This document shows, one piece after another, positions 31,135 to 36,208 of a stretch of 64,000 bases of DNA. This DNA is from Polaribacter sp. Lineage in GTDB: Bacteria > Bacteroidota > Bacteroidia > Flavobacteriales > Flavobacteriaceae. The notes beneath the pieces are model-generated. The model worked only from the letters and a program-made list of their open reading frames with translations, made no database searches and was not told the DNA's origin. The position numbers and the translations under genes were made by a program. The number at the start of each line of letters is the position of its first letter. The first letter of the stretch is position 1. Where the stretch lies: contig NZ_JAHEHX010000019.1 of assembly GCF_024639685.1 (NCBI RefSeq), positions 372,001 through 436,000 of the forward strand. The letters run 5' to 3'.

Positions 31135-32196
31135 ATGATTAGTATTCAAAATAGAATTACTGCATTCGCAAAATTAGGTAACTTTTTAAGTCAGTTTTCA
31201 TCAGATAAGATCGAGAAAAAACCAAATATTGAGCATAATGATTTATTTTTTGATGGGTTTCTGCATCAAATTAAATTAGCGCAAGAAAATAACTCTTGGT
31301 TTACCAAAGACAACATTTTATTTGCTTTACAAAGTTGGTCTAAAGCCTTATCTACAGAAAATTTAAATGATTTTGTTAAAGAATTTAATCTTACCAGTAA
31401 TTCAAATAAAAAGGTAGCCATAATAATGGCAGGAAACATACCTTTAGTTGGTTTCCATGATTTTTTATCGGTTTTAATTTCTGGTCATGAAGTTATCATA
31501 AAACAATCTTCTAATGACAAACATTTACTACCATTTTTGGCTAAATATTTAGAATACGTAGAAGAAAATTTTAAAGGTAAGATTGCATTTACTGATAAAA
31601 AATTGAGCAATTTTGATGCTGTAATAGCAACAGGAAGTAATAATACAGCTCGTTATTTTGAACACTATTTTAAAAACAAACCAAGCATCATTAGAAAAAG
31701 TAGAAACTCTGTAGCAGTGATAACTGGCAAAGAAGATGATAATGATTATATTGGTTTAGCAAATGATATTTTTCAATATTTTGGTTTAGGATGCAGATCT
31801 GTTTCTAAATTATATGTTCCTAAAAATTATAATTTTGATGCGTTTTTTAATGGGATGTACATCAAAAAAGATATTATAAATAACGCTAAATATGCAAACA
31901 ACTACGATTATAACAAGGCTGTTTATTTAATGAGTGAGTTTGATTTGTTAGAAAATGGTTTTTTAATGATAAAGGAAGACCAAAGTTATTCCTCACCTAT
32001 TGCAACTATTTTTTACGAATATTATGACAATGAAGTTGACTTAAAAATTAAATTACATGAAGACAGAGAAAAAATTCAGTGTATTGTAGCAAAAGACTTT
32101 CTAGAACATGAAATTACTTTTGGACAAACCCAACATCCACAATTAACAGATTATGCAGATGGTGTAAACACCTTAGAATTCTTGTCTAAATTATAA
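31135..32196 (+). CDS. Acyl-CoA reductase, LuxC-like
   Basis: 353 aa, cytosolic, aldehyde-dehydrogenase-superfamily protein related to LuxC, which reduces an activated acyl group to the aldehyde with NADPH. The cofactor region [33 protein letters not shown] and [17 protein letters not shown] are visible. The likely nucleophilic Cys is in [18 protein letters not shown] (about residue 221). No luxD, luxE or luciferase genes are nearby, so light production is not implied. A ferredoxin gene is divergent on the left and serC begins 3 nt downstream. The substrate is unknown; fatty aldehyde or a serine-pathway-linked acyl group are only guesses. Confidence 0.88.
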
Positions 32197-32199
32197 ATT

Positions 32200-33264
32200 A
32201 TGAAAAAACACAATTTTAGTGCTGGTCCTTGTATTTTACCTGAAGAAGTTCTACAAAAGGCATCTAAAGCAATTTTAAATTTTAATGATGACAATTTATC
32301 ATTAATAGAAATTTCGCATAGAAGTAAACCATTTGTAGATGTTATTGAAAAAGCGAGAGCCTTAGCTTTAGAACTTTTAGGATTGGATAATAAAGGATAC
32401 AAAGCCTTGTTTTTACATGGAGGTGCAAGCATGGAGTTTTTAATGGTGGCTTATAACCTATTGCATAAAAAAGCAACTTATTTAAATACAGGTACTTGGT
32501 CTGATAAAGCCATTAAAGAAGCTAAAGAATTTGGGAAAATTGTAGAAGTTGCCTCGTCAAAAGACAAAGGTTTCAATTACATACCAAAAGGATATTCAAT
32601 TCCTAAAGATGCTGATTATTTTCATTGCACTAGCAACAATACAGTTGCTGGAACACAAATGAAAGATTTTCCAGACACTGATGTTCCTCTAGTTTGTGAT
32701 ATGAGTTCAGATATCTTTTCACGCCAATTAGATTTTGAAAAGTTCGATTTGATTTACGCTGGTGCTCAAAAAAATATGGGGCCTGCAGGAACCACTTTAG
32801 TCATTATTAAAGAGTCTATTCTAGGAAAAGTAGAAAGACATATACCCTCTATGATGAACTATCAAGTTCACATAGAAAAAGACAGTATGTTTAATACACC
32901 AGCAGTTTTTCCTATTTATGTTTCTATGCTAACATTGGAATGGTTAAAAGATTTAGGAGGTATACCTTTCATCGAGAAAGTGAACAATAAAAAAGCTAAA
33001 CTTTTATATTCAGAGATTGATAGAAACCCATTATTTAAGGGAATTGTAGCTAAGGAAGATAGAAGTACAATGAATGCAACTTTTGTATTAACAGATGACT
33101 CATTAACTGAAAAGTTTGATAAAATGTGGCAAGATGCAAACATTAATGGTTTATATGGTCATAGATCTGTAGGTGGTTACAGAGCAAGTATGTACAATGC
33201 TTTGCCTTTATATAGTGTGCAAGCATTAGTAGATGTAATGCAAGAATTAGAGAAAAATAATTAA
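32200..33264 (+). CDS. serC: Phosphoserine aminotransferase
   Basis: PLP enzyme converting 3-phosphohydroxypyruvate and glutamate to O-phosphoserine; in organisms making PLP by the DXP-dependent route it also acts in B6 synthesis. Cytosolic. 354 aa, class V aminotransferase fold. The N-terminus MKKHNFSAGPCILPEEVL is the SerC signature. The PLP Lys lies in DLIYAGAQKNMGPAGTT (about residue 195), and HGGASMEFLMVAYNLL and CDMSSDIFSR are conserved. The C-terminus NGLYGHRSVGGYRASMYNALPL is complete. It lies 3 nt after the acyl-CoA reductase and 58 nt before the SerA-like gene. Confidence 0.97.
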   Translation: MKKHNFSAGPCILPEEVLQKASKAILNFNDDNLSLIEISHRSKPFVDVIEKARALALELLGLDNKGYKALFLHGGASMEFLMVAYNLLHKKATYLNTGTWSDKAIKEAKEFGKIVEVASSKDKGFNYIPKGYSIPKDADYFHCTSNNTVAGTQMKDFPDTDVPLVCDMSSDIFSRQLDFEKFDLIYAGAQKNMGPAGTTLVIIKESILGKVERHIPSMMNYQVHIEKDSMFNTPAVFPIYVSMLTLEWLKDLGGIPFIEKVNNKKAKLLYSEIDRNPLFKGIVAKEDRSTMNATFVLTDDSLTEKFDKMWQDANINGLYGHRSVGGYRASMYNALPLYSVQALVDVMQELEKNN

Positions 33265-33322: not shown

Positions 33323-34273
33323 ATGATAATATTAGCAAACGACGGAATTACATTAAAAGGAATTGAAGCTTTAGAAAAAGTAGGTTTTGAGGTAAACATT
33401 ACAAAAGTTGCCCAAAATCAATTAGAAAATTTTATTAATGATAATAATATTGACGGAGTTTTAGTAAACTCAAACACTCAAATAAGACAAGAATTAATTG
33501 AAGCTTGTCCATCTTTAAAATTGATAGGAAACTCAAGCGTAAATATGGATAATATTGATGTTGATTTTGCCATAGATAATGGTTTACATGTTATCAACCC
33601 TAAAAATGCTTCAGCAAGTTCTGTAGCAGAACTGGTTTTTGCACATCTTTTTGGAATGGCTCGTTTTTTACATTCTTCTAACAGAGAAATGCCTCTAGAA
33701 GGAGATATGCGTTTTAAAGAATTGAATAAAGCATATGCCTTAGGTACAGAATTAAGAGAAAAAACAATAGGTGTTTTAGGTTTTGATAAAGTAGGTCAAG
33801 AAGTAGCTAAAATTGCTATTGGTTTAGGAATGCATGTTATGGCCTATGATGATTTTATTGAAGAAGCAACCATTACTTTAGACTTTTACAATCAGCAAAA
33901 AATAGATTTTACCATTCATACAGATGCAATTGATGATGTTTTAAAAGAATCAGATTTTATCTCTTTACATTTAACAAATCGTGAAGATTATATAATTACT
34001 GCTACTGAGTTCGATAAAATGAAAGATGATGTTGGTTTTATAAATACAGCAAAAGGGGGAATTGTAAACGAAGTAGATTTAATAAGTGCTATAGAAAGTG
34101 GTAAGGTACAATATGCAGGTTTAGATGTTTTTGAAACAGAACCAACACCTGCTGTTCAACTCTTAATGAACTCAGAAATTTCGCTTTCTCCAAATATAGC
34201 TTCATCAACAAAAGAGGCACAAGAAAGAGCTGGTTTAGAGTTAGCAAATCAAATTATTAAATTGTTAAACTAG
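33323..34273 (+). CDS. SerA-like D-2-hydroxyacid dehydrogenase homologue, active site lost
   Basis: 316 aa, full-length two-domain fold of the D-3-phosphoglycerate dehydrogenase type; position after serC and segments such as MPLEGD, GTELR and ALDVFETEP-like GLDVFETEP identify the family. The signature residues are changed throughout. Substrate loop VRSAT is VNSNT (N49), the RGGVG loop is NSSVN (70-74), the dinucleotide motif GFGRIG is GFDKVG (D155), the catalytic Arg in ARGG is Lys (K244), and the catalytic His of the PHIGA motif is Asn (N291). Only Glu273 remains. I infer it does not oxidise 3-phosphoglycerate. It may be a pseudoenzyme with a structural or regulatory role. It is followed by DUF1015 after 28 nt. 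Confidence 0.88.
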   Translation: MIILANDGITLKGIEALEKVGFEVNITKVAQNQLENFINDNNIDGVLVNSNTQIRQELIEACPSLKLIGNSSVNMDNIDVDFAIDNGLHVINPKNASASSVAELVFAHLFGMARFLHSSNREMPLEGDMRFKELNKAYALGTELREKTIGVLGFDKVGQEVAKIAIGLGMHVMAYDDFIEEATITLDFYNQQKIDFTIHTDAIDDVLKESDFISLHLTNREDYIITATEFDKMKDDVGFINTAKGGIVNEVDLISAIESGKVQYAGLDVFETEPTPAVQLLMNSEISLSPNIASSTKEAQERAGLELANQIIKLLN

Positions 34274-34301: not shown

Positions 34302-35537
34302 ATGGCAATTGTAAAACCGTTTAAAGCTGTAAGACCAAGTAGAGATAAAGCTGCTTTAGTTTCCTCTAAATCTTATGAGGCTTATACTCCTGCAGAATTG
34401 GGTGCCAAACTAAATTTCAATCCTTTTAGTTTTTTGCATATTCTAAATCCAGATTACAAATACCATCAAGAAGTTTCTAGTGAACAACGTTTTCAATTAG
34501 TTCATAAAAAATATAACGAGTTTAAAAGCAATGGGTATTTCACTAAAGATAATAAGCCTGCTTTTTATATTTATCAAAACAATACTCCTACTAAATCTTA
34601 TTGTGGTATTATCTCTGCAACTGCAGCAGAAGATTATCATAATAATGTAATTAAGAAACACGAAGATACACTTCAAAAAAGAGAAGTTCTTTTCGAGAAA
34701 TACTTGAAAAAAACTGGATTTAATGCAGAGTCAGTTTTACTTACCTACCCCGATAATGATATTATTGAAAACATCATTAAAAAACACCAGTTAGAAAGAC
34801 CTGAGTATGAGTTTGCTACTACAGACAAAAACACGCATTTTCTTTGGGTTATAAATGATGAAGAAGAAATTAATTTAATTTCTAAAGCGTTTAAAAATGT
34901 TGCTACTTTATATATTGCAGATGGGCATCATAGAACAACATCTTCTTGTTTGCTAGCCAAAAAATTATCAGGAGAAAATAAAAATCATACAGGTAATGAA
35001 CCTTATAATTATTTTATGAGCTATTTGTTACCTGAAAGTCAAGTCGATATATATGAATTCAATAGATTTATTAGAGATTTAAACGGATTAACTTCTACTC
35101 AGCTTTTAAAAGAGTTAGGTAAAGTGTTTCAAATTAAAAAGAAGCATCAAGAAATATTTAAGCCATCAGAAAAAAATGAATTTAGCATGTATTTAGATGG
35201 CGAATTTTATGCTTTAAGTTTAAAAGAATCCGTTTATAAAATTACAGATGAATTAAGTAAATTAGATGCTCAAATTTTATTTACTACTGTTTTAAAACCA
35301 ATTTTAGGGATTAATGATATCAGAAATGATTCTAAAATTGTGTATTCTCAGAATAAAACTGGCAGTTTAGAACTAAAAACAAAGGTTGATACAGGAGAAT
35401 TTAAAGTATCTTTTGGCATGTTACCAGCTACAATTAATGAACTTAAAAATATTGTAGACGCAGATTTATTGATGCCTCCAAAAACAACCTTTATAGAGCC
35501 AAAATTAAGAAGTGCTTTAACCATATATGAACTATAA
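34302..35537 (+). CDS. DUF1015 family protein
   Basis: 411 aa, cytosolic, no signal peptide. I recognise DUF1015 from the start MAIVKPFKAVRPSRDKAALVSSKSYEAY, the segment NPFSFLHILNPDYK, and the motif LYIADGHHRTTSSCLLAKK, whose Asp and His residues could bind a metal or phosphate. The family is widespread and usually next to serA/serC in Bacteroidota and clostridia, so a link to serine or phosphoserine metabolism has been suggested by context; I know of no firmly established activity. A SerK-type serine kinase activity is known for related ParB/DUF1015-like proteins and is possible here. Spaced 28 nt from the SerA-like gene and 2 nt from yggS. Confidence 0.88.
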   Translation: MAIVKPFKAVRPSRDKAALVSSKSYEAYTPAELGAKLNFNPFSFLHILNPDYKYHQEVSSEQRFQLVHKKYNEFKSNGYFTKDNKPAFYIYQNNTPTKSYCGIISATAAEDYHNNVIKKHEDTLQKREVLFEKYLKKTGFNAESVLLTYPDNDIIENIIKKHQLERPEYEFATTDKNTHFLWVINDEEEINLISKAFKNVATLYIADGHHRTTSSCLLAKKLSGENKNHTGNEPYNYFMSYLLPESQVDIYEFNRFIRDLNGLTSTQLLKELGKVFQIKKKHQEIFKPSEKNEFSMYLDGEFYALSLKESVYKITDELSKLDAQILFTTVLKPILGINDIRNDSKIVYSQNKTGSLELKTKVDTGEFKVSFGMLPATINELKNIVDADLLMPPKTTFIEPKLRSALTIYEL

Positions 35538-35539
35538 AT

Positions 35540-36208
35540 ATGATTCAAGAAAACTTAGAGAAAATAAAAGCTACTTTACCCAAAAACGTAACATTGGTTG
35601 CTGTTTCTAAAACAAAACCTGTAGAAGATTTACAGGAAGCTTATAATGCAGGTCAGCGTGTTTTTGGTGAAAACAAAATTCAAGAAATGGTAGACAAGTT
35701 CGATGTTTTACCAAAAGACATTCAATGGCATATGATTGGTCATTTACAGAGCAATAAAGTAAAATACATGGCTCATTTTGTAGATTTAATTCATGGTGTT
35801 GATAAACTAAAAACTTTAAAAGTAATAAACAAAGAAGCCAAGAAACACAATAGAATAATCAATTGTTTATTACAGGCTAAAATAGCAGAAGAAGTTTCAA
35901 AATTTGGTTTATCTTTTGCTAATATTGAATCAATTTTACAATCAGATGACTTTGCAGTATTAGAAAACGTTAATATTGCTGGGTTTATGGGAATGGCTAC
36001 ATTTACTTCTGATGAAAATCAATTAAACAAAGAGTTTTCATCACTAAAAAAATTCTTTGATAAACAAAAAGAAGAAATAAATTTACCTAACTGTAATTTA
36101 AAGACTCTCTCAATGGGTATGAGCGGAGATTATCCACTAGCCGTTAAAAAAGGAAGCACTATGGTTAGAGTTGGTAGTGCAATATTTGGCAATCGGAATT
36201 ATTATTAG
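35540..36208 (+). CDS. YggS family PLP homeostasis protein
   Basis: PLP-binding protein (YggS/PLPBP) without known catalysis that helps maintain vitamin B6 and amino-acid balance, cytosolic. 222 aa, single alanine-racemase-like barrel. PLP Lys is in LVAVSKTKPVEDLQEAY (about residue 25). VFGENKIQEM, IQWHMIGHLQSNKVKYM and LSMGMSGDYPLAVKKGSTMVRVGSAIFG (phosphate site) are conserved. It begins 2 nt after the DUF1015 stop, so it is in the same operon as serC. The PLP-dependent SerC in that operon makes the grouping sensible. Confidence 0.95.
   Translation: MIQENLEKIKATLPKNVTLVAVSKTKPVEDLQEAYNAGQRVFGENKIQEMVDKFDVLPKDIQWHMIGHLQSNKVKYMAHFVDLIHGVDKLKTLKVINKEAKKHNRIINCLLQAKIAEEVSKFGLSFANIESILQSDDFAVLENVNIAGFMGMATFTSDENQLNKEFSSLKKFFDKQKEEINLPNCNLKTLSMGMSGDYPLAVKKGSTMVRVGSAIFGNRNYY

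Follow-up and report, generated by a model that had tools for sequence, protein, structure and literature searches.

The short SerA-like protein encoded downstream of serC in the window (the whole stretch of 64,000 nucleotides of Polaribacter sp. DNA that was analyzed) preserves the frame and the predicted fold of a D-3-phosphoglycerate dehydrogenase (PGDH), and has lost catalytic, substrate-binding and cofactor-binding residues of that enzyme. Purifying selection on this degenerate gene is well supported, and so is, as read from its residues, the absence of PGDH activity that we infer for its product. The explanation we put forward, with evenly balanced confidence, is that the protein is a PGDH-derived pseudoenzyme that was freed by a SerB-SerA fusion and is retained, as a non-catalytic partner or regulator, within a module of serC and a serine-kinase-like gene; the partnership could be physical or regulatory. 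As a rule, a pseudoenzyme is known from one ancient event, whereas here catalysis has seemingly been lost a dozen or so times in close relatives. Because these repeated losses come with intact sister species as controls, it becomes testable why a dead enzyme should be kept. In annotation pipelines and pathway models the degenerate gene will be named SerA, and serine synthesis will thereby be credited to the wrong protein.

Active-site residues and predicted fold of the window SerA

The frame is free of stop codons, and its product was matched by the Pfam families 2-Hacid_dh (PF00389; 75.6 bits, gathering score 24.6) and 2-Hacid_dh_C (PF02826; 130.4 bits, gathering score 25.1). The predicted structure, which was built on an alignment that includes intact relatives, has a mean pLDDT of 90.3 and a pTM of 0.84; its top PDB match is 1wwk, the PGDH of P. 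horikoshii (E=2e-28), and PGDHs are the closest relatives of solved structure. Pfam and fold matches together place the protein in the D-2-hydroxyacid dehydrogenase (2HADH) fold family, and bear out the statement of the preliminary description that the fold and length of a PGDH have been kept. Identity to intact orthologues is 50–72%. The score against the NCBIfam equivalog TIGR01327 (PGDH) was 239.9 bits, below the curated cut-off of 454, which a short SerA may miss on length alone against a model of 525 positions. The features of the locus are collected in Table 1; the position of the LuxC-like gene before serC is conserved in related genomes.

Table 1. Features of the serC-serA-DUF1015 locus, in window coordinates
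Feature	Position	Strand	Basis or remark
LuxC-like acyl-CoA reductase-type protein, directly upstream of serC	31135-32196		PF05893, weak match
serC, phosphoserine aminotransferase, 354 aa, upstream of serA	32200..33264	+	conserved with serA
Short SerA-like protein with degenerate active site (pseudo-SerA), 316 aa	33323..34273	+	ORF, Pfam, alignment, predicted fold
Codon 49, Asn for substrate-binding Arg of VRS	33467..33469	+	alignment
Codons 70-74, NSSVN for RGGVG (substrate phosphate Arg, carboxylate-binding Gly)	33530..33544	+	alignment
Codon 155, Asp for middle Gly of NAD GxGxxG	33785..33787	+	alignment
Codon 244, Lys for catalytic Arg	34052..34054	+	alignment
Codon 273, catalytic Glu kept (FETEP)	34139..34141	+	alignment
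Codon 291, Asn for catalytic His	34193..34195	+	alignment
DUF1015 protein (PF06245), 411 aa	34302..35537	+	predicted fold matches SerK/SbnI
DGHHR motif of DUF1015, residues 207-211	34920..34934	+	20-orthologue alignment
yggS-like PLP-binding protein (Ala_racemase_N), next gene of the run	35540..36208	+	

Alignment with intact orthologues confirmed all the motif changes that had been quoted: VRSAT to VNSNT, GRGGVG to GNSSVN, GFGRIG to GFDKVG, NTARGG to NTAKGG and TPHIGA to SPNIAS. N49, N70, N74, D155, K244 and N291 of the window SerA thus occupy the places of R, R, G, G, R and H, respectively, in active relatives. The protein therefore lacks the catalytic Arg of N-x-x-R-G-G (Lys244), the catalytic His of PHxG (Asn291), the carboxylate-binding Gly (Asn74), the NAD-binding GxGxxG (GFDKVG, with Asp155) and, at Asn49 and Asn70, the Arg residues of VRS and RGGVG, both of which bind substrate in PGDH structures. 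The earlier claim that the whole active-site signature had been lost was nevertheless slightly overstated, since catalytic Glu273 as well as Asn241, Asp176 and Asn92 are unchanged. What Arg, Glu, His and the Val-Gly amides do in 2HADH enzymes has been reviewed (PMC6303947). When the 147 positions that are near-invariant in intact orthologues were considered, 18 were changed in the window SerA, and 12 of these 18 fell among 25 substrate, cofactor or catalytic positions (Fisher p=4e-7), a site list drawn from family knowledge after the finding was known.

Errors at several of these codons had been named as a possible refutation; four relatives that are 88–96% identical (G024, G104, G086 and G166) carry the same residue pattern, so that the pattern is not a sequence error. 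Clade-wide conservation together with the dN/dS values given below rules out both a sequence error and a pseudogene. That the protein is a working PGDH with an unrecognized variant of the active site is, in our judgment, very unlikely. Type IIIK enzymes do function with Lys replacing the His, but they retain the Arg (PMC6303947), and in the window SerA the Arg, the His and both substrate Arg are missing; furthermore, the genomes in which the fused PGDH has been deleted (see below) all hold canonical residues in their short SerA. A type IIIK active site as such was rejected on the residues, which are Asn291 and Lys244 here and, in type IIIK, Lys at the His place with the Arg kept (PMC6303947).

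Recurrence of degeneracy and selection in the genus

A total of 169 SerA orthologues were gathered from the genus group (Polaribacter/Tenacibaculum) and the wider order, resulting in 95 intact sequences, 13 in which the catalytic triad was kept and substrate residues were lost, and 61 missing at least one triad residue. All 74 degenerate orthologues and 76 of the 95 intact ones belong to the genus, in which 74 of 150 have accordingly lost substrate or catalytic residues; all of them still lie beside serC. Arg244 is still present in four of the 61 triad-lost sequences (G069, G143, G083 and G160), in which Glu273 or His291 is the only triad residue missing. Replacements vary by lineage, the Arg having become K, Q, H, I, G, N, Y, A or T and the His N, K or R, and Ser50 has repeatedly become Asn. 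Outside the genus, the site is kept in 46 of the 48 family sequences read, where readable, the split gene of G323 described below being one of the 46. Degenerate short SerA proteins were seen there in two family members (G251 and G291) and in another genus, where G244 encodes a very divergent, degenerate SerA (36% identity; motifs YHPR and SPNIAN) directly behind serC (L405 1498-2457).

Some sampled genomes are incomplete and the tree backbones are weak. On a SerA tree from which the active-site columns had been removed, the split between intact and non-intact sequences needs at least 12 changes, of which well-supported branches force only 3 for the intact group; on the neighbor tree (serC+DUF1015) it needs 18, and the changes forced by well-supported branches number 7 when the intact group is scored and 9 when the triad-lost group is. 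A single origin of the degeneracy is disfavored by both trees, within the limits of their weak backbones, and catalysis has apparently been lost many separate times among these related marine bacteria.

Two arrangements in other genomes were recorded alongside. An otherwise canonical short SerA in G323 (L407 1501-2452) is split in two overlapping frames by a frameshift or an assembly error. In the flavobacterium G319 (L409), unlike in its relatives, a type IIIK-looking SerA whose His place holds Lys (TPKK) is encoded between DUF1015 and serC.

Pairwise codon models gave dN/dS values for the window serA of 0.028 against G024, 0.019 against G104 and 0.031 against G086. The median over 19 degenerate serA pairs was 0.043 (range 0.013-0.111), compared with 0.030 over 19 intact pairs, and the values for the neighboring serC (0.036-0.037) are close to those of degenerate serA; dS is saturated in some of the pairs. 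Each of the 130 near-complete genus genomes has a short SerA orthologue. Among the 147 near-invariant positions, 88 remain at least 90% conserved in degenerate orthologues. A further 13 have disappeared from most of these sequences, and 12 of the 13 have a part in substrate binding, cofactor binding or catalysis (Fisher p=5e-10, with a site list likewise drawn up once the finding was known). These data agree with the preliminary description, which had argued against random decay and had suggested that selection maintains a role without catalysis or an altered one. The window SerA has lost catalytic residues and kept its frame, its predicted fold and its purifying selection, as expected of a pseudoenzyme. 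Relaxed selection, by which a redundant gene is drifting toward loss and its frame is open only through recent origin, is scarcely credible to us. The fusion would indeed make the PGDH activity of the short SerA redundant, and the family includes the split gene of G323 and a fusion-bearing genome (G255) with no short SerA found at the threshold used, but dN/dS of about 0.04 over dS of up to 2 and above contradicts drift, as do the retention of the orthologue in all near-complete genomes of the genus and the confinement of the losses to the active site.

The main rival to a non-catalytic partner is an enzyme with a changed substrate, acting on another ligand whose phosphate or carboxylate is not in the usual place and perhaps using Lys244 as base; we regard it as rather unlikely. 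The 13 orthologues with Arg, Glu and His in place, frequently together with the NAD loop, lack the substrate-phosphate Arg or the carboxylate Gly, so that the change at the substrate site seemingly came first; these sequences fit a changed substrate and have to be counted against our preferred explanation. The retention of E273, N241 and D176 in the window protein also favors a neofunctionalized enzyme, as does the Lys catalysis known in type IIIK PGDH (PMC6303947), and Lys and Asn at the places of Arg and His might support weak or different catalysis. However, in the window clade the Arg, the His and the NAD-loop Gly have all been replaced, and the varied replacements, with no newly conserved position among the degenerate sequences, speak against one new active site. 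The same 13 orthologues, with the triad kept and the substrate site gone, also point to substrate binding as the function that tends to be lost first.

The SerB-SerA fusion and the DUF1015 neighbor

The window genome encodes five complete 2-hydroxyacid dehydrogenase homologues, one of which, at 630 aa and located outside the serC operon, is a HAD-phosphatase-PGDH-ACT-like fusion (SerB-SerA) with all catalytic residues present. It had been reasoned beforehand that the first step of serine synthesis would need another enzyme and that a second intact serA should be sought in the genome; this fusion provides both. Fusions of this kind occur in 161 of 168 genus genomes; among family members of other genera the count is 27 of 149 genomes, and both G251 and G291 have one. 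In a sample of 68 fusions, most of them from genomes whose short SerA is degenerate, every PGDH and PSP catalytic residue checked was kept in all 68.

Loss of the fused PGDH was also observed. In four related genomes (G076, G148, G169 and G138) the fusion is without its NAD domain, with the same junction in 4/4, leaving a 430-aa SerB-remnant-ACT protein (L270, L271, L272 and L273), and in G144 no fusion was found; the short SerA is canonical in 5/5 of these genomes. Such a reciprocal loss, with the fused PGDH gone and the short SerA intact, is what would be expected of two redundant PGDHs; since the five genomes are close kin, it perhaps represents one or two events only. The recurrence of the losses, this reciprocal pattern and the tracking by DUF1015 described below go beyond the earlier note, which was made from a single sequence.

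A strict rule that a degenerate short SerA needs an intact fusion is broken in the genus by G130 and G030, and outside it by G244. In G130 (L292 1504-1611 and L286; 1.6 Mb, 96% complete), the short SerA is degenerate and all that is left of the fusion is a 36-residue relic between a glycine dehydrogenase-like gene and tpiA; serC, pseudo-SerA and DUF1015 are still open frames there, and the organism is possibly a serine auxotroph. No fusion was found in G244 at E<=1e-100 or in G030 (53% complete), both with degenerate SerA. Either these three organisms need external serine or another PGDH was missed. G130 also bears on the proposal that the degenerate SerA is a non-catalytic subunit that tunes the active fusion in mixed oligomers, which we consider distinctly unlikely. 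Both proteins are of the dimer-forming PGDH kind and a full fusion is found in nearly all genomes with a degenerate SerA; yet the two PGDH domains share only about 28-31% identity, so that mixed dimers are unlikely, the degenerate SerA is retained in G130 where the fusion is a relic, and the association with DUF1015 is left unexplained.

That association is evident within the genus, where DUF1015 directly follows serA in 69 of 74 degenerate and 25 of 76 intact genes; genus genomes without it at this place mostly have no DUF1015 at all. In 17-18 independent pairs on the neighbor tree, DUF1015 tracked degeneracy in about 10-11 and opposed it in 1 (sign test p~0.01); limited to well-supported branches, the association is not significant, the pairs being too few. 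G181, G176 and G163 have a degenerate serA without DUF1015, and in G251 and G291 DUF1015 lies elsewhere in the genome. At four loci from several Polaribacter (L064, L065, L066 and L078), DUF1015 is cleanly absent between serA and yggS, an absence that nearly always coincides with an intact serA.

An AlphaFold2 model of DUF1015 (pLDDT 85) had as its nine top PDB matches SerK of Thermococcus, a Pyrococcus furiosus homologue or SbnI (E 9e-9 to 4e-7). The following match had E=0.03, which leaves the SerK/SbnI group as the only significant one; TM-scores by query of 0.33-0.37 indicate that the SerK/SbnI-like fold of the predicted model covers part of the chain. The DGHHR motif is invariant in 20 of 20 aligned orthologues, including those of Clostridiaceae and Chryseobacterium. 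DUF1015 is therefore likely, on its predicted fold, to be a bacterial serine kinase family, and would gain a putative function as a free serine kinase-like protein; earlier work on such a kinase role of DUF1015 may exist. In Desulfurococcales, serK adjoins PGDH and aminotransferase genes, and a route from serine to 3-phosphoglycerate has been proposed (Makino et al., 2016; PMC5120207). The fold and the gene order suggest that serC, serA and DUF1015 form a serine/phosphoserine module.

According to the explanation that we prefer, a SerB-SerA-ACT fusion would already have supplied PGDH activity in ancestral Polaribacter/Tenacibaculum, and the short (type III) SerA beside serC, freed from PGDH duty thereby, could have lost catalysis repeatedly. 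A folded, probably dimeric pseudo-SerA would have been retained as a non-catalytic partner or regulator of the serC/DUF1015 module. Given the predicted free-serine-kinase fold of DUF1015, this module would handle serine, O-phosphoserine and phosphohydroxypyruvate, while the fusion would perform the 3-PG step. That a PGDH-derived pseudoenzyme arose repeatedly in one genus as the obligate non-catalytic partner of the DUF1015 serine-kinase-like protein, once the fusion had taken over, is a more specific proposal, which we offer tentatively and on balance doubt.

Comparison with known systems

In a search of incomplete coverage we found no literature that treats PGDH pseudoenzymes, SerB-SerA fusions of flavobacteria or a serine kinase function of DUF1015; given that coverage, this silence is weak evidence of novelty. 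With the short (type III) PGDH of Bacteroidota (2HADH family SERA), the window SerA has in common its length, fold, serC linkage and catalytic Glu; it differs in that the catalytic Arg and His, both substrate Arg, the carboxylate Gly and the NAD-loop Gly have been replaced. The type IIIK PGDH of Bacteroidetes and Entamoeba likewise deviates from the Arg/His/Glu triad, but it keeps the Arg and has Lys at the His place, whereas the window SerA has Lys for Arg and Asn for His. Eukaryotic CtBP shares the 2HADH fold with the window SerA and was among its sequence matches, and the role of CtBP lies outside simple metabolic catalysis. CtBP is a separate subfamily, whereas the pseudo-SerA would have arisen repeatedly inside PGDH and stays in the serC operon.

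The serK/PGDH/aminotransferase clusters of Desulfurococcales (PMC5120207) resemble the present locus in that a gene for a serine-kinase-like protein stands beside PGDH-like and aminotransferase genes. The PGDH homologue there is taken to be a part of serine assimilation, while here the SerA is a degenerate one and DUF1015 stands as the kinase-like protein. Within the same genome, the PGDH domain of the 630-aa SerB-SerA fusion belongs to the same family as the window SerA and has a complete set of catalytic residues; unlike the window SerA, it is joined to a phosphoserine phosphatase and an ACT-like domain, is intact and is encoded outside the operon.
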